From IMG/VR virus record IMGVR_UViG_3300049825_000533, positions 1 through 26,806 of that record: a stretch of DNA of 26,806 bases; one strand, given 5' to 3'. This document shows positions 2,211 through 26,799 of the stretch, piece after piece (position 1 is the stretch's first letter; every line of letters starts with the position of its first letter). The notes below the pieces were generated by a model, which ran no database searches, was not told the origin of the DNA, and saw only the letters and a program-made list of their open reading frames with translations. The position numbers and the translations under genes were made by a program. Source of the stretch: a virus.

Positions 2211-2422
2211 TTGAAATCTTCTTTCAGCGATGAGGACAGTGTACGTAAGGTGTTGCTTAGTAACAGCCGTTTTTCAGCAAGCTCGGCAAGAAAATTATCA
2301 ACAGCAACCTGGTTGTTATTCCTCTCCTCCAGCAGCTGTCTTAGACTGCGCTCTAGCCACTTGATCCTGTTCAATGTGTCGCATGCCGAGTCCATGACTC
2401 CTAGAGTGTTGTTACCGATCAT
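2207..2422 (-). CDS. Short coiled-coil protein
   Basis: 71 aa from ATG 2422-2420, overlapping the DUF1064 gene stop as ATGA. After a short polar N-terminus the chain is a long amphipathic helix (LNRIKWLERSLRQLLEERNN, then FLAELAEKRLLLSNTL) typical of a coiled coil. The base composition is visibly more AT-rich than in its neighbours (the 2210-2420 stretch), a possible sign of separate origin. Function unknown. It directly precedes another short coiled-coil protein, so the pair may assemble together. Confidence 0.55.
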   Translation of the reverse strand: MIGNNTLGVMDSACDTLNRIKWLERSLRQLLEERNNNQVAVDNFLAELAEKRLLLSNTLRTLSSSLKEDFK

Positions 2423-2745
2423 TTCTTCTTCTTTCGTTTTGGTGGAGACACGATGTCAAGGACAGCTGCGATGTTTGGATGTTCGTGCTTGAGCATCCTC
2501 ATTTTTAGCCGAAAAACCGGAGTTTGGATGCCTTTAGCCTCTACGTACCTTACTATCTTGTCGTCTTCGACGATTGCGAAGTCACAGACGTACTTCGCGC
2601 CGCACGCGAACTTTATCGGGACCTGCTCTAGGAGCACCTCATTTGGCAGCAGGGCCGCCTTTAGGGCTGCGGCCACCTTCGCCTCGAACTTGGAAGCGTA
2701 ATGCCCGGTTCGGACTGCGCGGTACTTGGAACGCCTAACCGCCAT
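2419..2745 (-). CDS. DUF1064-type PD-(D/E)XK nuclease, resolvase-like
   Basis: 108 aa. The N-terminal segment KYRAVRTGHYASKFEAK and the core YVCDFAIVEDDKIVRYVEAK match the DUF1064 phage family, which has the restriction-endonuclease fold. Candidate catalytic residues are Glu21, Asp55, Glu69 and Lys71 (the E-x-K of VEAK). Family members are thought to cut branched DNA or act in recombination and packaging. That role fits a phage that recombines with YqaJ and Bet proteins, since no RusA or other resolvase is seen here. The C-terminus ends in a basic tail (PPKRKKKK). ATG 2745-2743 overlaps the dUTPase end by 11 bases. Confidence 0.75.
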   Translation of the reverse strand: MAVRRSKYRAVRTGHYASKFEAKVAAALKAALLPNEVLLEQVPIKFACGAKYVCDFAIVEDDKIVRYVEAKGIQTPVFRLKMRMLKHEHPNIAAVLDIVSPPKRKKKK

Positions 2746-3220
2746 TGCCCCCGGGCCTCACCGGTGATCCGTTAGCGTCTACGCTGATAGGCCTGATACC
2801 GCTACTGCCAAATCCGTTTGCGCCACGCGAGGTATCGCCGAGCTCCGAGCACGCGTCGAACTTGAACAGCAAGTGCGGAACGACGACAAGCTGTGCGATT
2901 CGATCTCCAGACCTTACTGTCCATTTTTCTCGTAACGAAGCGTTCTGTGCGATGGCTCGAATCTCTCCACGGTATGCCGGGTCTATTGTGCCGGTGTGGA
3001 TCGTGAATCCTTGACTGGAAAGCCCGCTCCTCGGAAGCGAGAACGCAACGTACCCAACGGGGAGCTCGATTGCGATGCCGAGGGATATCGTCCGCATCTC
3101 GCCTGGGTACAACGTCCACTCCTCTATTGAGTGCACGTCCGCGCCAGCATCGCCCTCGCGCTGGGCAGGGATGATTGCTCTCGGGTGCAGAAGCTTGATC
3201 TTGATATTCATCGGACTCAT
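2735..3220 (-). CDS. dut: dUTP diphosphatase (dUTPase)
   Basis: 161 aa, the usual size for a trimeric dUTPase. All five motifs are visible in order: motif 1 GDAGADV near residue 23, motif 2 PRSGLSSQG near 62, motif 3 GTIDPAYRGEIRA near 76 with the catalytic Asp and uracil-pocket Tyr, motif 4 GDRIAQL near 105, and motif 5 RGANGFGSSG near 131. It converts dUTP to dUMP and pyrophosphate, keeping uracil out of phage DNA. ATG 3220-3218 overlaps the stop of an upstream mini-ORF as ATGA. A second ATG (3211) gives the N-terminus MNIKIKLLHPRA, which looks more like other family members, so translation may begin at either. Confidence 0.93.
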   Translation of the reverse strand: MSPMNIKIKLLHPRAIIPAQREGDAGADVHSIEEWTLYPGEMRTISLGIAIELPVGYVAFSLPRSGLSSQGFTIHTGTIDPAYRGEIRAIAQNASLREKWTVRSGDRIAQLVVVPHLLFKFDACSELGDTSRGANGFGSSGIRPISVDANGSPVRPGGNGG

Positions 3221-3551: not shown

Positions 3552-3744
3552 TGCGCACCTCGACGTTGCTCTTGTGTACGGGGGCCAGTCCGCCCCACGC
3601 GAACCTCACCACCATCGTTTGGTGGTCTACCACGCGAACGACCTCAGCTGGCTCTCCAGCTAGCGTAAGCCGGCATGCGTGCTTGGACGGGCGCTGGTCG
3701 GTCATGATGGCGTATACAGGTGAGCGTATGATTGCCCTAGTCAT
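3544..3744 (-). CDS. Small protein of unknown function
   Basis: 66 aa from ATG 3744-3742, preceded by GAGGAG with a seven-base spacer; this start is preferred over an upstream TTG (3771). The C-terminal half (LAGEPAEVVRVVDHQTMVVR, FAWGGLAPVHKSNVEVR) alternates hydrophobic and polar residues as in a small SH3-like or KOW-type beta barrel. That fold is a guess from pattern only. The stop of the gene before lies inside its first codons. Function unknown. Confidence 0.5.
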   Translation of the reverse strand: MTRAIIRSPVYAIMTDQRPSKHACRLTLAGEPAEVVRVVDHQTMVVRFAWGGLAPVHKSNVEVRNV

Positions 3745-4039
3745 TGCACAACTCCTCAAGTTCCCACGCAAGTAGCCTCAACGCGACCAGCAACTCTTCG
3801 TGCACAGCAGCCGCAACCACGACGTGCTTTGGACCAGCGTAGGCACGTACGTGTGAGCCTCCTGGGTAGAATTGCGCGTTCCAGTGCATTCGCTCACAGA
3901 GAACACTCTCGACCCTCCGCATTGCCGCTCCCACCTGCTGGTGGGGGGACGGGACTGGATTTGGCTCGTGCCACAAAGGCAAATCAATAACAGGCACGCG
4001 CAACGGTGCTGGGCGCCTCAAAACTGTGTTTTCGCTCAT
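3737..4039 (-). CDS. Hypothetical protein, second gene of leftward operon
   Basis: 100 aa from ATG 4039-4037, overlapping the repressor stop as ATGA. The N-terminal 35 residues are Pro-rich and likely extended (RRPAPLRVPVIDLPLWHEPN). The remainder looks like a small alpha/beta domain ending in a long helix (HEELLVALRLLAWELEELCN). No motif is recognised. Being translated directly after the repressor, it could be a partner or antirepressor, but only position suggests this. Confidence 0.5.
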   Translation of the reverse strand: MSENTVLRRPAPLRVPVIDLPLWHEPNPVPSPHQQVGAAMRRVESVLCERMHWNAQFYPGGSHVRAYAGPKHVVVAAAVHEELLVALRLLAWELEELCND

Positions 4040-4248
4040 GGTTGGTACTCCTCAGCTGACGTAATCAGTTCGACTGCAGACAGGTCCAGTGCAGCAGCAA
4101 TACGTAGTAGCGTTGCGATTGATGGAATGTTCCCCTTTGTTTCCAACCTCACCACCCCCTGGCGGTGCATGCCGGCGAGAAATGCGACCTCGCCCTGGGT
4201 CAGGCCCAGTTCCAGCCGCCGGCTACGTATCGCTGCTGCAATGTCCAT
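4036..4248 (-). CDS. Cro/C1-type helix-turn-helix repressor
   Basis: 70 aa starting at ATG 4248-4246. The chain is almost exactly one HTH_3 domain: IRSRRLELGLTQGEVAFLAG (helix 1 and scaffold helix 2), then MHRQGVVRLETKGNIPSIAT (recognition helix) and two closing helices (LLRIAAALDLSAVELI). It has no cleavage or dimerisation domain, so it resembles Cro-type or short regulators more than lambda CI. It is the first gene of the leftward operon and faces a divergent operon across a 94-bp dyad-symmetric region, its likely binding target. No Shine-Dalgarno precedes the ATG, and the inferred promoter would give a leaderless transcript. Confidence 0.85.
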   Translation of the reverse strand: MDIAAAIRSRRLELGLTQGEVAFLAGMHRQGVVRLETKGNIPSIATLLRIAAALDLSAVELITSAEEYQP

Positions 4249-4254
4249 GTCCAA

Positions 4255-4283
4255 ACAGTACACGGTTCCCAGCCGGGGTGCAA
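4255..4283 (-). promoter_or_regulatory. Candidate leftward early promoter
   Basis: Read on the minus strand: a TTGCAC box (4283-4278), a 17-base spacer, then TACTGT (4260-4255), with six bases to the repressor ATG at 4248. Both boxes are weak matches to sigma-70 consensus, so the call rests mainly on spacing and exact mirror symmetry with the rightward candidate. Transcription would begin at or next to the ATG. Confidence 0.42.
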
Positions 4284-4318
4284 CGTTTTTGTTTCGAACC
4301 ATTTCTGTTGCACACCGG
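4273..4318. promoter_or_regulatory. Dyad-symmetric operator between divergent early operons
   Basis: Outer arms CCGGGGTGCAAC (4273-4284) and GTTGCACACCGG (4307-4318) are reverse complements at 11 of 12 positions. The palindrome TTCGAA (4293-4298) lies exactly at the centre. Each arm contains the candidate -35 box of one divergent promoter, so a dimer of the adjacent repressor bound to the arms could shut both promoters. The inner flanks are A/T-rich and not symmetric. Confidence 0.65.
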
Positions 4319-4336
4319 GACGGCAGGCTGTAGGCT
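4308..4336 (+). promoter_or_regulatory. Candidate rightward early promoter
   Basis: TTGCAC (4308-4313), a 17-base spacer and TAGGCT (4331-4336), with six bases to the ATG at 4343. The layout is the mirror image of the leftward candidate about 4295/4296. The GAGG at 4337-4340 is too close to the ATG for a normal Shine-Dalgarno, consistent with a leaderless start. The -10 box is poor, so this is an inference from symmetry. Confidence 0.42.
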
Positions 4337-4342
4337 GAGGGT

Positions 4343-4669
4343 ATGACAAAAACAAAAAACGGGAACGGGTTCAGCATCGAGTGCGTAAGCATCACGACCA
4401 CGGCCGGGTTCTACCCGGAGTTTCTTGTTAGCGTGTGCGTCGAGGACTTCGAGGAAACGAACCTCGTCTACGATTGCACGTTGTACTATTCGAGTTTAGA
4501 CAACGAAGTTGTCGACGTGTCCGACGTCAGTCTGAACGGCGTAGAACAGGACGTGTGGCCAGAGGGGCTGGAAGAATTCCTGCGCTCGGAACAGGCGGAA
4601 AGGAAGCTCCGGGATACCTCCGACTGGTTCCTGGAAACTGCCGATCTTACCGACGCGGGGCTCAAGTGA
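4343..4669 (+). CDS. Acidic hypothetical protein, first gene of rightward operon
   Basis: 108 aa from ATG 4343. After a Lys/Asn-rich start (MTKTKNGNGF) the middle is beta-rich and acidic (SVCVEDFEETNLVYDCTLYY, VVDVSDVSLNGVEQDVWPEG), and the C-terminus is helical. The overall negative charge could suggest a DNA mimic or a partner of the recombinase that follows, but no family is recognised. Its TGA overlaps the exonuclease GTG as GTGA. It is the likely first product of the rightward operon and may be leaderless. Confidence 0.6.
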   Translation: MTKTKNGNGFSIECVSITTTAGFYPEFLVSVCVEDFEETNLVYDCTLYYSSLDNEVVDVSDVSLNGVEQDVWPEGLEEFLRSEQAERKLRDTSDWFLETADLTDAGLK

Positions 4670-5268
4670 GCGAGCGCGAGGAGTGGCTGGCCAAGCGCCG
4701 CAATTTTGTGACCGCAAGTGACTGCGCCGCTCTGCTGAACTTGAGCCCGTACAAGACTCGCGACCAGTTGCGCATGGAAAAGATGGGGCTGGCCGACGAG
4801 TGGAAGGGAAACGAGGACTCTGAACTCGCTTTGCTATTCGAGGAACGATTCATCCAGGTGTCAGGGATCCGATTCGGATGGAACGTAAAGCCATGGGGGC
4901 TCAACATGGTTTCAGACTTCGCGTGCCAAAGGCTGGGGGCAACACCGGACGCGGTATTGGAAACTCCATGGGGAACCGCGATAGCCCAGTACAAGTGGAC
5001 AACCTGCCAGGCGAAAGAAGACTGCGAGCCACTCACGAAGAAGGGGAAGCCGTCTACCGCTGCGTATCTAAACGGTCCTCCGCTCCACTATCAGATACAG
5101 GTACAGGCTGAGATGGCTTGTATGAACGTAGAACACGCGTCACTGGTGGTGATGCACATGGCTAACGGCACTAAGAAACTGCGCGCCTATTACATTCCAC
5201 GTCACGACGGCGTGATTCGCAAAATACGTGAGGAAACAATGAAGTTCTGGAAGGAGATTGAAGGATGA
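4666..5268 (+). CDS. YqaJ-type viral recombinase, 5'-3' exonuclease of the Red pathway
   Basis: 200 aa starting at GTG 4666, which overlaps the upstream TGA; the open frame reaches back to 4435 but that part is a shadow. Family features in order: ASDCAALLNLSPY near 17-29, an acidic LLFEERF near 56-62, the metal-binding Asp in LGATPDAVL (Asp95), the QYK triad (108-110), and HYQIQVQAEMACM near 143. In lambda-type exonucleases the triad is Glu-x-Lys; here the codon is CAG, so Gln replaces the catalytic Glu. Known members resect double-stranded ends for a Bet/RecT partner, which follows immediately by ATGA overlap. The Gln raises the question whether nuclease activity is retained. Confidence 0.85.
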   Translation: MSEREEWLAKRRNFVTASDCAALLNLSPYKTRDQLRMEKMGLADEWKGNEDSELALLFEERFIQVSGIRFGWNVKPWGLNMVSDFACQRLGATPDAVLETPWGTAIAQYKWTTCQAKEDCEPLTKKGKPSTAAYLNGPPLHYQIQVQAEMACMNVEHASLVVMHMANGTKKLRAYYIPRHDGVIRKIREETMKFWKEIEG

Positions 5269-6329
5269 CCACGTCAGTCACGAAGCACGAACAACTCGAC
5301 GATGGTCAGTTGTTACTACTCAAGAACACCATCGCAAAGGGCGCCAGCACGGCCGAGTTCGACATGTTCGTCCAGGTATGTAATCGGCTACGGCTTGACC
5401 CGTTCAGTCGTCAGATTTTTTTAGTGAAGCGCTACGACAGCTCGTTGCGCGCTGAGGTGGCTCAGCCCCAGGTGTCCATTGATGGATTTAGGCTTGTTGC
5501 GGAGAGAACTGGACAGTACCGAGGTCAGACACCGCCGCAATGGTGCGGCAGGGACGGCGTGTGGCACGACGTGTGGCTGGCGGACGAACCGCCAACTGCA
5601 GCTCGTTGTGGCGTGTACAGAGAGGGTTTCGCGGAGCCGCTGTACAGGGTGGCTCGCTATGCAAGCTACGTACAGACAACTCGCGACAAGCAGACCGGGC
5701 AAATGCGTCCAAACAGGATGTGGTCGACTATGCCGGACGTAATGTTGCATAAGTGTACGGAAATGCTCGCTATTCGGGCAGCGTTCCCAAACGAGCTTTC
5801 CGGAGTGTACGGCACCGACGAAATGGGACAGGCAAACAATGAAGACGCACGCGCGTCACTGCCTCGCGTGAGAGCGACGCTCGACGACGTTGCTGCACCA
5901 GAGCCCAGGGCGCTGCCAGCACCCAAGGGGCTGACTAGGGCTGAGATGTCCGAGGCTACGCGTGAAGCGCGCGCTATGCGCGGGCCCGACTACGTTGCCG
6001 CACCAGAGCCAAAAACGCTCACGCAATCGCAGCTGTCAGGCTCGCCTGGATATCGCGAGGCCGTGGCAGTGCGCGAGCCAGACTGCCTAGACGGCACGAC
6101 CGACGAGGCGAAGTTTGACGAGTACGGTCTGCAGATACCAAATCACCCGTGCCCGGTGGTGACAGGTAAAGGACCGCACTCTGGCAAGCGCTGGGACGAG
6201 CTGCCTGGCCCGCTGGTGAACAAGATGTATGCGGACAACTCGGGCAAGATGACCATGGAAAAGGTCGAATGGTGCGAATACCTGATATCGAATCGGGCCG
6301 CACGGAAAGCACAGGAGAGTGGAAAGTGA
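5265..6329 (+). CDS. bet: Bet/RecT-family single-strand annealing protein
   Basis: 354 aa. Residues 1-195 match the Red-beta (Bet) family: CNRLRLDPFSRQIFLVKRYD, QVSIDGFRLVAERTGQYRGQ, PNRMWSTMPDVMLHKCTEML and AIRAAFPNELSGVYGTDEM. The protein anneals complementary strands after exonuclease resection. It is longer than lambda Bet (261 aa). Residues about 205-285 are a Pro/Ala/Glu-rich linker with a repeated VAAPEP unit. The last 75 residues form a second small domain (VVTGKGPHSGKRWDELPG, then MEKVEWCEYLISNRAARK) that resembles DUF3820-like modules of the pattern GKhxGKxWxExP; this is a loose match. The gene is coupled to the exonuclease by ATGA and to the next gene by GTGA. Confidence 0.88.
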   Translation: MTTSVTKHEQLDDGQLLLLKNTIAKGASTAEFDMFVQVCNRLRLDPFSRQIFLVKRYDSSLRAEVAQPQVSIDGFRLVAERTGQYRGQTPPQWCGRDGVWHDVWLADEPPTAARCGVYREGFAEPLYRVARYASYVQTTRDKQTGQMRPNRMWSTMPDVMLHKCTEMLAIRAAFPNELSGVYGTDEMGQANNEDARASLPRVRATLDDVAAPEPRALPAPKGLTRAEMSEATREARAMRGPDYVAAPEPKTLTQSQLSGSPGYREAVAVREPDCLDGTTDEAKFDEYGLQIPNHPCPVVTGKGPHSGKRWDELPGPLVNKMYADNSGKMTMEKVEWCEYLISNRAARKAQESGK

Positions 6330-6414: not shown

Positions 6415-6502
6415 GTCGACCGCGCTTGTGAAGCTAGGCGCTCAGGTGTCCGGAGACGCTCAGGTGTCCGGTCACGCAGACGGGAGGTTGCAAAGTGAGT
6501 AG
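6326..6502 (+). CDS. Short paralogue of the hexapeptide-repeat protein
   Basis: 58 aa from GTG 6326 (GTGA overlap with bet). Residues 9-27 (GPVAAHQHPNGGGWVADTA) are identical to residues 11-29 of the protein at 7285-8010, and the flanking DNA is also similar. After this head it has only two hexapeptide-like units (AQVSGDAQVSGHADG) before stopping, so the beta-helix body and the C-terminal domain are absent. It could be an independent small protein or a remnant of duplication. It overlaps the start of the SSB gene by eight bases, so its translation may be needed for SSB expression. Function unknown. Confidence 0.65.
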   Translation: MTTHDFGSGPVAAHQHPNGGGWVADTASVESTALVKLGAQVSGDAQVSGHADGRLQSE

Positions 6503-6887
6503 CACAAACGTGGTCGTTATCGACGGGTACCTGGGCAAGGATCCTGAACTCCGTCACTCCAACTCTGGGTGCGCCTTCCTGTCGTTCAGCGTGGCGGTGA
6601 AGGCGTGGCGCAAGAGCAAGGAGGGCGGGGGGCAGGAAGTCACTAGCTGGATTGACTGCCAGGCAATCGGGAAGCGAGCAGAGTCACTAGGCAATGTGTT
6701 GCATAAAGGGCTGTTCGTGGTCATCAGCGGAGAGTTGCAACAGGAGACGTGGGAGAAGGAAGGAAGGAGGCAATCTAGGCTGCGGGTTATCGTGAACAAC
6801 CTTTCGCTGGGGCCGCGTAGCGATGGCCCGCGATCACGTGTAGATTCCCAGAGTCAAACGATCGACGACGACCAAATCCCATTCTGA
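6495..6887 (+). CDS. ssb: Single-stranded DNA-binding protein
   Basis: 130 aa from GTG 6495. The OB fold is evident: VVVIDGYLGKDPELRHSNSG, FLSFSVAVKAWRKSKEG, TSWIDCQAIGKRAESLGNVL, then KGLFVVISGELQQETWEKEG. The C-terminus ends IDDDQIPF, the acidic tip by which SSB proteins recruit partners. It coats single strands during replication and recombination and probably works with the exonuclease and annealing protein encoded just upstream. The linker is short, so it is smaller than E. coli SSB (178 aa), as is usual for phage versions. Confidence 0.95.
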   Translation: MSSTNVVVIDGYLGKDPELRHSNSGCAFLSFSVAVKAWRKSKEGGGQEVTSWIDCQAIGKRAESLGNVLHKGLFVVISGELQQETWEKEGRRQSRLRVIVNNLSLGPRSDGPRSRVDSQSQTIDDDQIPF

Positions 6888-6896
6888 GGAGGCAAC

Positions 6897-7298
6897 GTGA
6901 AGGCGTGGAAATCGGTCGACTGGACACTGAGCAACGCGAATATCGCGAATATTCAGGGCGTAAACATCAAGACGGTGGCCAAGTACCGTTGCGCGTTTGG
7001 CCAAAAACGAGAAACGCCGGCTCAGTCGGTGGACAAAAAACTTGCACGCGCCGACTGGAGCAAGACGAACGCAGAGATAGCACGGGAGTTTGGCGTTGAC
7101 CTTGAGTCAGCAGCAAAGAGGCGACCGGTTGGTACCGTACCAGCGAAGCAGCTGGCACGGAGAGAACTGGAGGAGAGCGTCGATTGGACAAGCGTCGACT
7201 GGTCAAAGTCTGACGGGCAAATAGCGTATCAAAAAAGAGTCCTTATTTCCACCGTAGTCAGTAATCGAGCAAAAAGGGAAGCGAATGACAACGTATGA
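6897..7298 (+). CDS. Protein with three helix-turn-helix-like repeats
   Basis: 133 aa from GTG 6897, with a strong GAGGAGG six bases before it. Three related segments are visible at residues 7-31 (VDWTLSNANIANIQGVNIKT and on), 52-76 (ADWSKTNAEIAREFGVDLES and on) and 100-124 (VDWSKSDGQIAYQKRVLIST and on). Each fits D-W-[ST]-x-[STN]-[ND]-x-x-I-A-x(4)-V-x(4)-[AV]-x(3)-R, a homeodomain-like helix-turn-helix. The second unit has the clearest Gly-Val turn; the others have drifted. Basic linkers separate the units by 45 and 48 residues. Three DNA-binding heads on one chain could recognise a repeated site. Target unknown; a regulator or replication-origin binder is possible. Confidence 0.65.
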   Translation: MKAWKSVDWTLSNANIANIQGVNIKTVAKYRCAFGQKRETPAQSVDKKLARADWSKTNAEIAREFGVDLESAAKRRPVGTVPAKQLARRELEESVDWTSVDWSKSDGQIAYQKRVLISTVVSNRAKREANDNV

Positions 7299-8010
7299 TT
7301 TTGAGGACGGCCTAGGGCCAGTCGCCGCACACCAACACCCAAACGGAGGCGGATGGGTCGCAGACACCGCGTTAGTGGATGCAACCGCGGAGGTGTTCGC
7401 AACCGCGGAGGTGTTCGGTAACGCCAAGTTGTTCGGTAACGCCAAGTTGTTCGGCAACGCGAGGGTCTACGGCAACGCGATGGTCTACGGTAACGCGAGG
7501 GTCTACGGTAACGCGAGGGTCTACGGTAACGCGAGGGTCTACGGGGACGCGAGGGTCTACGGCAACGCGAGGGTCTACGGCAAAGCGAGGGTCTACGGCA
7601 ACGCGAGGGTATGCGGCAACGCGGTGGTGTGCGGTGGGGCGAAAGTGTACGGGGACGCGGTGGTGTGCGGGGACGCGGTGGTGTACGGGAACGCTAATGC
7701 GTACGGGAACGTTAAGGTGTCCGGAGACGTGTGGACATTTGGGGACGATCCAGCGCCGACGCGAGAGGAGCAGGTCAGGCTCGCGAGGCTCGTACTCGAG
7801 CAGGCAGATAACGGACTCGTGGACACGAAATCATGGCACTGCGGCACATATCACTGCGTTGCAGGCTGGGCGCAAGTGCTCAGAGGCAGGAGAGAGTGCA
7901 GTGGCTCCGCGTACGAGGACGGCGTCAAACTAATACCGCTTATGGCCCCGCACTTCTTCGAATCCTCAGAAGTCGCAATCAAGAAGCTGACGGACCTGGC
8001 GCGGGGCTAG
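7285..8010 (+). CDS. Hexapeptide-repeat (left-handed beta-helix) protein with Cys/His C-terminal domain
   Basis: 241 aa from ATG 7285. Residues 1-30 share the GPVAAHQHPNGGGWVADTA head with the 6326 gene. Residues about 31-150 are some twenty V-[YFC]-G-[ND]-A-x units, the pattern of a left-handed beta-helix in which each three units make one turn, so about six or seven turns. Catalytic hexapeptide transferases have interruptions and an active-site His; none is clear, so a structural or binding role is more likely. Residues about 160-241 form a separate domain with the motif SWHCGTYHCVAGWAQVL, seen in small unassigned phage and actinobacterial proteins. Rightmost gene of the early operon; its TAG shares a palindrome with the amidase stop. 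Confidence 0.72.
   Translation: MTTYDFEDGLGPVAAHQHPNGGGWVADTALVDATAEVFATAEVFGNAKLFGNAKLFGNARVYGNAMVYGNARVYGNARVYGNARVYGDARVYGNARVYGKARVYGNARVCGNAVVCGGAKVYGDAVVCGDAVVYGNANAYGNVKVSGDVWTFGDDPAPTREEQVRLARLVLEQADNGLVDTKSWHCGTYHCVAGWAQVLRGRRECSGSAYEDGVKLIPLMAPHFFESSEVAIKKLTDLARG
7381..7731 (+). repeat. 18-bp tandem repeats encoding hexapeptides
   Basis: About nineteen tandem 18-base units of the form [AG]ACGCGAGGGTCTACGG[TC]. The units between about 7456 and 7610 are nearly identical at DNA level, while those at both ends have drifted. This gradient is typical of recent expansion in the centre. Length changes would keep the frame and add or remove a third of a beta-helix turn each. Confidence 0.9.
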
Positions 8011-24205: not shown

Positions 24206-24748
24206 TTACGCTCCCTTCCGGGCAGCGCCCAGAATCAGACTGTGTTCAGTGCGGACTGTGCCAGTGGACTTTTGAGCTCCAATGCCCATGAGGGCATCAG
24301 CGCGCTCGAACTCAGGACTCGTGGATCGCGCGTTCGCCTGTCCCTCCCCGAGTGTGAGGGTAGTGGCCGCTGCTGTTTTTGCCGCGAATTTAGCGCGTCG
24401 CGGCAACGCCCCGACAATCGCGCGCACTTCGGCGAGCGGTTTGGTTCGCAGCACGTCGACGAGCTCGGGCCCGAGGTCGTCTCGGCTCGCCAGTAGCGCC
24501 TTGCGATCGTCTGACTCGCGCGTCGCTGTTAGCTCGCCGATGCGCGCGCTCAGCGTCTGCACCTGCTGGGCGAGCTGGGCGACCATGGACGCCTCGATCG
24601 TTGACTCGTCCGTGGGCGCAGCGGGCTCCACTTCGCCGGGCTCCTCGGGCTCCGCAAGCTTGGCCACAGCAGCCTTCGCCATACCCGCGTCTTCCCCCTC
24701 GCCCTTAGCCATGTCGGCTAGAGCTGTCATCAGTTCGCCATATGTCAT
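24206..24748 (-). CDS. Nested scaffold protein (Mu gpZ / lambda Nu3 type)
   Basis: An in-frame ATG (24748-24746) inside the protease gene is preceded by AGGAG eight bases upstream and would make 180 residues (MTYGELMTALADMAKGEGED and on). It covers the Glu/Pro-rich, coiled-coil C-terminal part and excludes all protease residues. Mu gpI/gpZ and lambda C/Nu3 use this arrangement, so separate translation of a scaffold is likely. The start site is seen directly; its use is inference. Confidence 0.6.
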   Translation of the reverse strand: MTYGELMTALADMAKGEGEDAGMAKAAVAKLAEPEEPGEVEPAAPTDESTIEASMVAQLAQQVQTLSARIGELTATRESDDRKALLASRDDLGPELVDVLRTKPLAEVRAIVGALPRRAKFAAKTAAATTLTLGEGQANARSTSPEFERADALMGIGAQKSTGTVRTEHSLILGAARKGA

Positions 24749-25477
24749 CTCTGACGCTCCTGGCCCGGACAGGGCCGCTAGAAACTCACGGTAGCCTAGC
24801 ACAGCATCCACCAACATGGCGGATCGCGCAGACTCACCCACGCACACGGCAGCTTGGAGTGACCTAGCGTCTAGACCTCTAGCAGACTGCACGTGATCGA
24901 AAAACACTGCGGCAATGTCGTCTACCATGCGCTGCCTCGCAGCTATTTCACCGTCATTCACTGCGACGTATGGGTGACCGTCGGCTTTACGCGCGCCGCT
25001 CGCGATCACCGAATACCGCACGCCTGACGCGTCATTCGCGGCGGAAACGTCCACGCGACAGTCGACCACACCTATGGATCCTACCAGGCCCGTAGAGCAC
25101 GTGGTGATTGACTCTGACGCGCATGCGATTGCGTATGCGGCGCTGCAACACTGCCCGGACACATACGCGACCAGGCGCTTGTTTGACGCTGCGCAGACCT
25201 CGCGGATGGCGTCGGCTGCCTCAAACAGCCCGGATACCACGCCGCCGGGGGAATCGATGTCGAGCACGACGTAATCAGCGTCGGTGGCGCACGCGTCGTA
25301 GACCCTGGACACGATCGATTCGTAGCTCTCGCATCCATGTCCCGGTGCGTCTATCGGGCCGCGTATCGGGACAATGGCGATCGGCCCGGGCCCCCGTGTG
25401 TTCCCGACCGTGGGCGGGACGGTCGTACCGATCGCAGACGGATCGATCGCGAGTAGTCCTGTGCGCGCGTAAATCAT
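24206..25477 (-). CDS. S49-family prohead protease with C-terminal scaffold domain
   Basis: 423 aa from ATG 25477, which overlaps the portal TGA as ATGA; the open frame extends to 25684 but that is portal coding sequence. Residues about 33-190 form the SppA/ClpP-like fold: VLDIDSPGGVVSGLFEAADA, catalytic Ser112 in CCSAAYAIACAS, TGLVGSIGVV, and catalytic Lys164 in GARKADGHPY. This is the serine-lysine dyad of S49 peptidases. Residues about 244-423 are Glu/Pro/Ala-rich and include a coiled coil (EASMVAQLAQQVQTLSARIG), the scaffold. The protein degrades the scaffold during head maturation, as in Mu gpI and lambda gpC. Confidence 0.9.
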   Translation of the reverse strand: MIYARTGLLAIDPSAIGTTVPPTVGNTRGPGPIAIVPIRGPIDAPGHGCESYESIVSRVYDACATDADYVVLDIDSPGGVVSGLFEAADAIREVCAASNKRLVAYVSGQCCSAAYAIACASESITTCSTGLVGSIGVVDCRVDVSAANDASGVRYSVIASGARKADGHPYVAVNDGEIAARQRMVDDIAAVFFDHVQSARGLDARSLQAAVCVGESARSAMLVDAVLGYREFLAALSGPGASEMTYGELMTALADMAKGEGEDAGMAKAAVAKLAEPEEPGEVEPAAPTDESTIEASMVAQLAQQVQTLSARIGELTATRESDDRKALLASRDDLGPELVDVLRTKPLAEVRAIVGALPRRAKFAAKTAAATTLTLGEGQANARSTSPEFERADALMGIGAQKSTGTVRTEHSLILGAARKGA

Positions 25478-26799
25478 GTCTGCCCCCCGGACACCAGTGA
25501 TAGAGCTACCTGTTGGCCCGGTACAGGCTCGACCAGCGGGATACCGTACTGCGCAGCGATCGCGCGAACATCGGGCCTTAGGCCGGCTTTTGCGAGCGAA
25601 TCTATCAGGCTGCCGATGGCGGTCGCGGTCGTTTGCAGCGCTGCGGCTTCGCGCGTCTTGTCCGCTGCGGGAGTGACGTCCCATTCAACCTGCGGCGATT
25701 GCGATAGGTCGATGCTGTCGAGGTCTGCGCCGAATGCCGCAGCGAAATAGTAAGGCAGAACCTGAGTGTTCACTGTGTACGCTAGAGCATCGGCGGTCGC
25801 TTTGATCAGGTCGCTTCGAATCGCTGCGTGAATCGATGCGTTTGCGAACCCTGATCCGCCATCAGTCGTGACGGTCTGACCGGCCAAGCACGTCACAATG
25901 GCGTTGTTTTCGGCCTCAATCGTCTTGAGGAAGCACTCGTATCCGCGCCCATTGGACTCGACGAGCTTGATGTCGTAGCCCGGACGGATGCCAAAAACGG
26001 TGCTACGCCCCCAGTCGATTACGGACTGCAGCCACGACTCTGACGCGGACTCACTGGCCCCAGCCGGCGACACTGCGACTCGTGCGGGATTGGCGAGTGT
26101 GGACTCCCAAGCATCCTTGGACAGCTGGGCGTGAGACTTGCGTACGTAGCTGGTCACCAGGGCCCGCCATGCGCCCGATAGCCACGGCGCAATTGCGCCG
26201 CCTGGACGGTGCAGCACCCAGCGACCATTGCCCGGGTAAATGGGCAGCAGGCCAGCAGTCGATCGGTAGTACCAGAGATTTTCGGACCATCGGTAGACCA
26301 AAAACTCTGGGTCAAGCCGCACGATTGAGGGGAAAACCTGCCCCTCGGTCCACACGAGTTCGGCAACGGAAACACCCAAAGCAATGCCGTCCGCGACCAT
26401 GGCGCTGATTTCGGCAGCCGGGCAGACCTCGTCGAAATCCGTGCGCGCGTAAGCGTGATCGTCAGTCAGTTGGCGCACCACGTCTGGGCGTCCGCGAAAC
26501 TTGCGCGGCAGTCGAACGAGGCCATCGGTGCGCGTTGACAGCACGCCTGCAAGCACGCCGTCTGCTCTCGATGCGCGGAACAGTTGCGCAGCTGTGCACA
26601 GGTTGCCCGCGTTCGCCTCGTGCTCCGCACGCTCGATGTCTTCTAGGTACCACCGCGTTCCGCTGGTCGGCTGAAACTGGACTCGACCGTTATACGCGGC
26701 GCGAGCCTTCTCCACCGACGCGTCTCCCAGCGATGGAGGCAACGAAGCCGGTCTCGGCGACCAGCGAATCAGTCCGGTCAATACGTCCATTACGCCCAT
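25474..26799 (-). CDS. Portal protein, DUF935 (Mu gp29-like)
   Basis: 441 aa from ATG 26799, seven bases from the window edge; Met4 (26790) is another possible start. DUF935 features are visible: DFDEVCPAAEISAMVADGIA, SVAELVWTEGQVFPSIVRLD near 140-165, the portal-core segment YVRKSHAQLSKDAWESTLAN, and the long helix and tail FLKTIEAENNAIVTCLAGQT, TTDGGSGFANASIHAAIRSD. It forms the dodecameric DNA channel of the head. The terminase large subunit gene would be expected just outside. No MuF-like (gp30) gene follows; the protease starts directly, by ATGA overlap. Confidence 0.9.
   Translation of the reverse strand: MGVMDVLTGLIRWSPRPASLPPSLGDASVEKARAAYNGRVQFQPTSGTRWYLEDIERAEHEANAGNLCTAAQLFRASRADGVLAGVLSTRTDGLVRLPRKFRGRPDVVRQLTDDHAYARTDFDEVCPAAEISAMVADGIALGVSVAELVWTEGQVFPSIVRLDPEFLVYRWSENLWYYRSTAGLLPIYPGNGRWVLHRPGGAIAPWLSGAWRALVTSYVRKSHAQLSKDAWESTLANPARVAVSPAGASESASESWLQSVIDWGRSTVFGIRPGYDIKLVESNGRGYECFLKTIEAENNAIVTCLAGQTVTTDGGSGFANASIHAAIRSDLIKATADALAYTVNTQVLPYYFAAAFGADLDSIDLSQSPQVEWDVTPAADKTREAAALQTTATAIGSLIDSLAKAGLRPDVRAIAAQYGIPLVEPVPGQQVALSLVSGGQT

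Follow-up and report, generated by a model that had tools for sequence, protein, structure and literature searches.

How two operons that diverge across only 94 bp might both be started and controlled from the DNA between them is the question raised by positions 4249-4342 of the sequence studied here, a viral record from IMG/VR whose 26,806 bases together we call the window. To answer it we considered in turn the genes on either side of the gap, the start codons and promoter-like boxes, the symmetry of the gap, and comparable regions elsewhere.

Gene order around the divergent region

The genome from which this fragment comes is probably that of a contractile-tailed phage. Genes for portal, head protease, sheath, tape measure, baseplate and tail spike run from 26.8 to 9.2 kb on the minus strand, and the early genes lie at 0.1-8.0 kb. 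As listed, the portal-like ORF (25474-26799, minus strand) overlaps the head-protease-like ORF (24206-25684, minus strand) by 211 bp (25474-25684), and the start of the latter is probably internal to the listed ORF. At 7285-8010 on the plus strand there is a 241-aa protein with a repeated YGNARV motif, of the YdcK-type beta solenoid kind.

The leftward operon is headed by a gene for a 70-aa HTH_3/Xre repressor (4036-4248, minus strand, ATG at 4248; Pfam HTH_3, 3.5e-13), followed by several small proteins with no assigned function, a dUTPase (2735-3220, minus strand; Pfam, 1e-24), a protein resembling Holliday-junction resolvases and endonucleases (2419-2745, minus strand; PHROG 190, 2.1e-10) and, on the same strand, a dATP/dGTP diphosphohydrolase-like protein (167-658; Pfam PF18909, 1.5e-31). 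The rightward operon, on the plus strand, codes in order for a 108-aa acidic protein (4343-4669), a YqaJ/RecE-like exonuclease (4666-5268; PHROG 434, 2e-26), a RecT-like annealing protein (5265-6329; PHROG 2780, 1.6e-62) and a single-strand DNA binding protein (SSB; 6495-6887; Pfam SSB, 1.2e-22).

The 70-aa protein also matches PHROG repressor families, and its AlphaFold model (pLDDT 91) has five helices forming a single HTH_3 domain. Its closest folds in the PDB are C.BclI, C.AhdI, C.Esp1396I, DdrO and 434 Cro, the restriction-modification C proteins being the best PDB matches both by sequence and by fold. The 108-aa protein gave no family match in Pfam, PHROGs or NCBIfam; it was modelled with low confidence as a beta-sheet plus helix, and no fold match at E <= 0.001 was found for it. 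Inside its gene, at 4404-4418 on the plus strand, the hairpin CCGGGTTCTACCCGG, followed by AGTTTCTTGT, looks terminator-like but is at chance level.

Start codons and promoter-like boxes at the operon heads

It can be seen that both strands read TTGCAC-N17-TAnnnT-N6-ATG between the ATG at 4248 (minus strand) and the ATG at 4343 (plus strand). The minus-strand boxes are TTGCAC at 4278-4283 and TACTGT at 4255-4260; on the plus strand they are TTGCAC at 4308-4313 and TAGGCT at 4331-4336, each -35-like box being separated by 17 bases from a -10-like box that lies six bases before its ATG. The first-pass annotation had described the -35 and -10 matches as weak, and this was borne out, with each box matching the consensus at 3/6 positions and a strict sigma-70 scan detecting no promoter in the gap (4249-4342). 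Weak hexamers would fit low or regulated promoters.

In high-GC bacteria the leaderless signature is a TAnnnT box whose first T lies about 12 bases before the start codon (PMC3160421), and in leaderless genes of Deinococcus the box is separated from the ORF by six to seven bases (PMC12340547). At both ATGs in the window the distance from the first T of TAnnnT to the start codon is exactly 12 bases. Moreover, duplex energies with the anti-Shine-Dalgarno sequence revealed no well-placed Shine-Dalgarno site at either operon head: the repressor head, at 0 kcal, ranks last of 35 genes, and the value for the 108-aa head (-2.5, against a random median of -2.2) is background, whereas most operon-internal genes have good sites (for example -7.8 for the gene at 3737 and -10.9 for that at 6495). 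A GAGG at 4337-4340 precedes the plus-strand ATG and could be a poorly spaced Shine-Dalgarno site, which would count against a leaderless reading. The start codons themselves are supported on both sides, since profiles align with the repressor from its residue 1 onwards, and a longer upstream start for the 108-aa gene is made impossible by the in-frame TAG inside its -10-like box TAGGCT.

The annotation had also suggested that both transcripts are leaderless. The TAnnnT spacing and the lack of a usable Shine-Dalgarno site, together with the recurrence of such pairs described below, bear this out, and leaderless starts at ATG 4248 and ATG 4343 appear well supported by the pattern. The host, whichever it is, is here assumed to tolerate leaderless mRNA. 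The rightward candidate opens with ATGACAAAAACAAAAAAC (4343-4360, plus strand), which is A-rich/CA-rich; A-rich or CA-rich starts are reported to help leaderless translation.

Mirror symmetry of the gap and the putative operators

The symmetry axis of the gap falls at 4295/4296, with 26/47 pairs matching across its whole length, and the positions given in the annotation for arms, centre, boxes, spacers and ATGs all proved to be right. The left arm, CCGGGGTGCAAC (4273-4284), overlaps the leftward -35 box, and the right arm, GTTGCACACCGG (4307-4318), overlaps the rightward one; the two form an inverted repeat with 11/12 positions paired, and we propose both as operators. Exact copies of GTTGCACNCCGG in the window are limited to two, one per arm. 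On the axis lies a 12-bp palindrome, TGTTTCGAACCA (4290-4301, 10/12 paired), which includes TTCGAA at 4293-4298 and surpasses every other short palindrome in the gap. If each arm holds a -35 region, and an equal 17-bp spacer and a start at the ATG follow, the -10 boxes and ATGs must be symmetric as well; that they stand equally far from the axis results from the identical geometry of the two promoters and adds no independent evidence.

With a half-width of 30, the axis at 4295/4296 ranks first of the 26,746 centres in the window (19/30 pairs; mean 7.9, sd 2.5), and at a half-width of 47 its score is reached by no more than 4 centres, itself among them. When the -10 boxes and the N6 stretches were left out, 21 of the 35 inner pairs matched against 8.9 expected, a value reached by 0/5000 shuffles. 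An arm pair matching at 11 of 12 positions occurred in 0.7% of simulated 94-bp regions. These figures bear on the possibility that ordinary leadered transcripts are made from other promoters, the symmetry and the TAnnnT boxes having arisen by chance. The weakness of the hexamers is in keeping with that idea, as is the finding that 11-of-12 inverted repeats with loops of up to 40 bases are not rare across the window (8 found, about 4.6 expected by chance). However, the 60-bp symmetry is the strongest in the window and its inner part was matched by no shuffle, both boxes stand at an equal, leaderless distance in a gap of only 94 bp, and the in-frame TAG blocks an upstream start on the plus strand. 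We regard leadered transcripts combined with chance symmetry as a very improbable explanation of the region.

The annotation had further proposed that one bound dimer of the 70-aa repressor could control both operons. Dimers of the 434 Cro or C-protein fold contact roughly 10-20 bp. The centres of the arms are 34 bp apart, so a single dimer cannot span both arms, and the proposal is not supported as far as a dimer across the arms is concerned; one dimer on each arm, or one on TGTTTCGAACCA, is the likelier fit. The second of these arrangements would leave a single dimer on TGTTTCGAACCA in control of both leaderless promoters, with the arms reduced to -35 regions plus a chance extension. The palindrome is centred exactly on the axis, and its size suits one dimer of an HTH protein like 434 Cro or the C proteins. 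It lies, however, between the -35 boxes, about 47.5 bases upstream of both starts, and overlaps neither box; its 10/12 match is weak by itself, five matches with up to 2 mismatches occurring in the window where about 2 are expected, and the arms are both better matched (11/12) and extended over the CCGG beyond the -35 box. We consider control from the centre by one dimer to be unlikely.

As to the protein that binds, the usual target of a small HTH protein encoded beside an intergenic region is that region itself, and it is plausible that the 70-aa protein acts on both operons here. The arms might instead be bound by another regulator, either from the host or a phage protein encoded outside the fragment such as a prophage repressor, leaving the 70-aa protein to act elsewhere or as a one-sided, Cro-like autoregulator. 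A regulator of this kind may be missing from a 26.8-kb fragment in which no integrase was found among the proteins scanned, and the leftward dUTPase, resolvase and dATP/dGTP diphosphohydrolase look lytic rather than lysogenic. Against this, no other HTH repressor was found adjoining the gap, and the usual behaviour of neighbouring HTH proteins, exemplified by phage PY54, favours the 70-aa protein. We judge binding by another regulator to be distinctly improbable.

The reading that we prefer, and hold to be reasonably probable, is that the gap is an early control region in which dimers of the 70-aa protein bind the arms and repress both operons from back-to-back leaderless promoters. In this early region of a tailed phage genome two weak sigma-70-type promoters would stand back to back, and each transcript would begin at the A of its own ATG or no more than one base from it. 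The mRNAs heading both operons would thus be leaderless, and the distal genes would mostly be translated from Shine-Dalgarno sites. We infer that the bound protein is the 70-aa HTH_3 protein, which would dimerise and bind operators in the symmetric region and would repress, about equally, its own promoter and that of the rightward exonuclease-RecT-SSB operon. Two-dimer occupancy, with one dimer per arm over each -35 box, seems most likely, and a further dimer on the central TGTTTCGAACCA could possibly bridge or help those on the arms. A stronger form, in which arms and centre make up one composite mirror operator where two or three cooperative dimers co-repress both leaderless promoters, is in our view doubtful. 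If true, it would make the region a strict two-way co-repression switch with both proteins made from leaderless mRNA.

Other phage loci and known systems

A DNA search of the control region against phage records returned nothing, a scan for both arms in other sequences was likewise negative, and IMG/VR searches with the 108-aa protein, the YqaJ protein and the portal-like protein uncovered no homologous control region. Upstream regions differ from that of the window both for the IMG/VR relatives of the 70-aa repressor and for the nearest RecT relatives, L028 and L029. The early region of L029, which carries one of the two closest RecT relatives, also contains an ORF of tandem GGCACCGCGACGGCTGGC copies (4155-5012). 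Comparable loci have other repressors and lack such arms, and, as no relative carries them, operator function is without support from conservation; within the window, further operator copies did not occur above chance. Relatives of RecT occur in Chloroflexota, Acidobacteria and Streptomyces records, and those of the sheath and baseplate proteins in Meiothermus, Thermus and Myxococcus phages. When Actinomycetota and Chloroflexota genomes were searched with the sheath protein, matches were few and distant, and a YqaJ search of Chloroflexota found nothing.

In a comparative set of 1.15 Mb, made up mostly of RecT-bearing phage loci with a few repressor-bearing ones, we counted divergent ORF pairs of the form TAnnnT-Nn-ATG for n from 1 to 19, the 18 spacings other than six serving as decoys. 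Five divergent pairs were found at (6,6) as against six in all over the decoy spacings (mean 0.33), an excess with P of about 3e-5 (4e-4 if the window is not counted) by a rough Poisson estimate that treats the spacings as exchangeable. On one side of most of the five stands a repressor or a small regulator-like protein.

Beyond the window, divergent pairs of the TAnnnT-N6/7-ATG form were seen in five other RecT-bearing phage loci, accompanied by a regulator or a small protein resembling one; most of these pairs lack the symmetry. The gaps of divergent pairs with such a protein measure 83-97 bp, and the comparison heads have no Shine-Dalgarno site except for the plus head of L098 (-4.6). Strong mirror symmetry is confined to the window, L057 being marginal (P 0.015). 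Two of the loci are clear repressor regions. In L057 a divergent leaderless-type pair (4479-4575) adjoins an S24-type cI-like repressor, and roughly five repeats containing CTAG (TCTAGC/GCTAGA), which are likely to be operators, lie in its gap; in L098, Cro-like and cI-like genes lie on the two sides. The small proteins of L010, L071 and L091 are ribbon-helix-helix-like by eye, with L071 and L091 at spacing 6/7; a borderline match to the Arc repressor (E 0.047) was obtained only for that of L071, and for the 70-aa protein of L010 a family match was not found. L010 reads TACTGT-N6-ATG on both sides (3061-3148) and repeats GTACTGTCGAT, one copy overlapping the rightward -10 box. One of the five strict pairs, that in L072, has a 162 bp gap and no sign of a regulator and is probably due to chance; L102 and L104, in which GTG is the start codon on one side and a regulator was not evident, were set aside.

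Among cellular systems, the AhdI C protein is made from a leaderless mRNA and EcoRV has divergent, overlapping promoters (PMC5333194); these are the nearest cellular parallels to the region described here. The C proteins C.AhdI, C.BclI and C.Esp1396I, the closest solved folds and sequences, resemble the 70-aa protein as small autoregulating HTH dimers. A role for it as a restriction-modification C protein was nevertheless rejected: neither GACT nor AGTC, the halves of a GACT/AGTC C-box, occurs within 4249-4342, and no restriction or methyltransferase gene lies beside the 70-aa gene, whose neighbours are YqaJ, RecT, SSB, dUTPase and unassigned proteins.

In phage PY54, RACE placed the 5' ends of both divergent mRNAs, those of cI and cro, at the AUG (PMC4488713), which shows that a divergent leaderless cI/cro arrangement works in a phage. 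Both regions have divergent regulator-containing promoters with an HTH repressor gene opposite the early operon, and the small Cro-type regulator that binds the intergenic region of PY54 has a putative counterpart in the 70-aa protein. PY54 differs in that repressors lie on both sides and a single operator of 16-18 bp is located upstream of cI, whereas in the window no opposing Cro or cI regulator of a PY54- or lambdoid-type switch was found, the opposite side being taken by a 108-aa protein that matches no HTH or other family; here the symmetry spans the whole gap, and the palindromic operator candidates are the central 12-bp palindrome and the inverted arms, all of them putative. With TAnnnT leaderless genes (PMC3160421, PMC12340547) the window shares a TAnnnT box six bases before the start of an operon-proximal gene with no Shine-Dalgarno site; it differs in that the pattern occurs at both heads of a single divergent phage region and is combined with putative operators in mirror image.

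We conclude that the switch design is already known in other phages and that the window is an attractive further example rather than a new type of system. It is a clean and testable one, in which the loss of both leaders would allow two promoters, two start codons and the putative operators of a tiny repressor to be packed into less than 100 bp. That an 83-97-bp divergent leaderless layout recurs with regulators of different types suggests a constraint that deserves a survey, and a composite mirror operator, if true, would point to a compact 83-97-bp module with interchangeable repressor types as a general design of phage early control.
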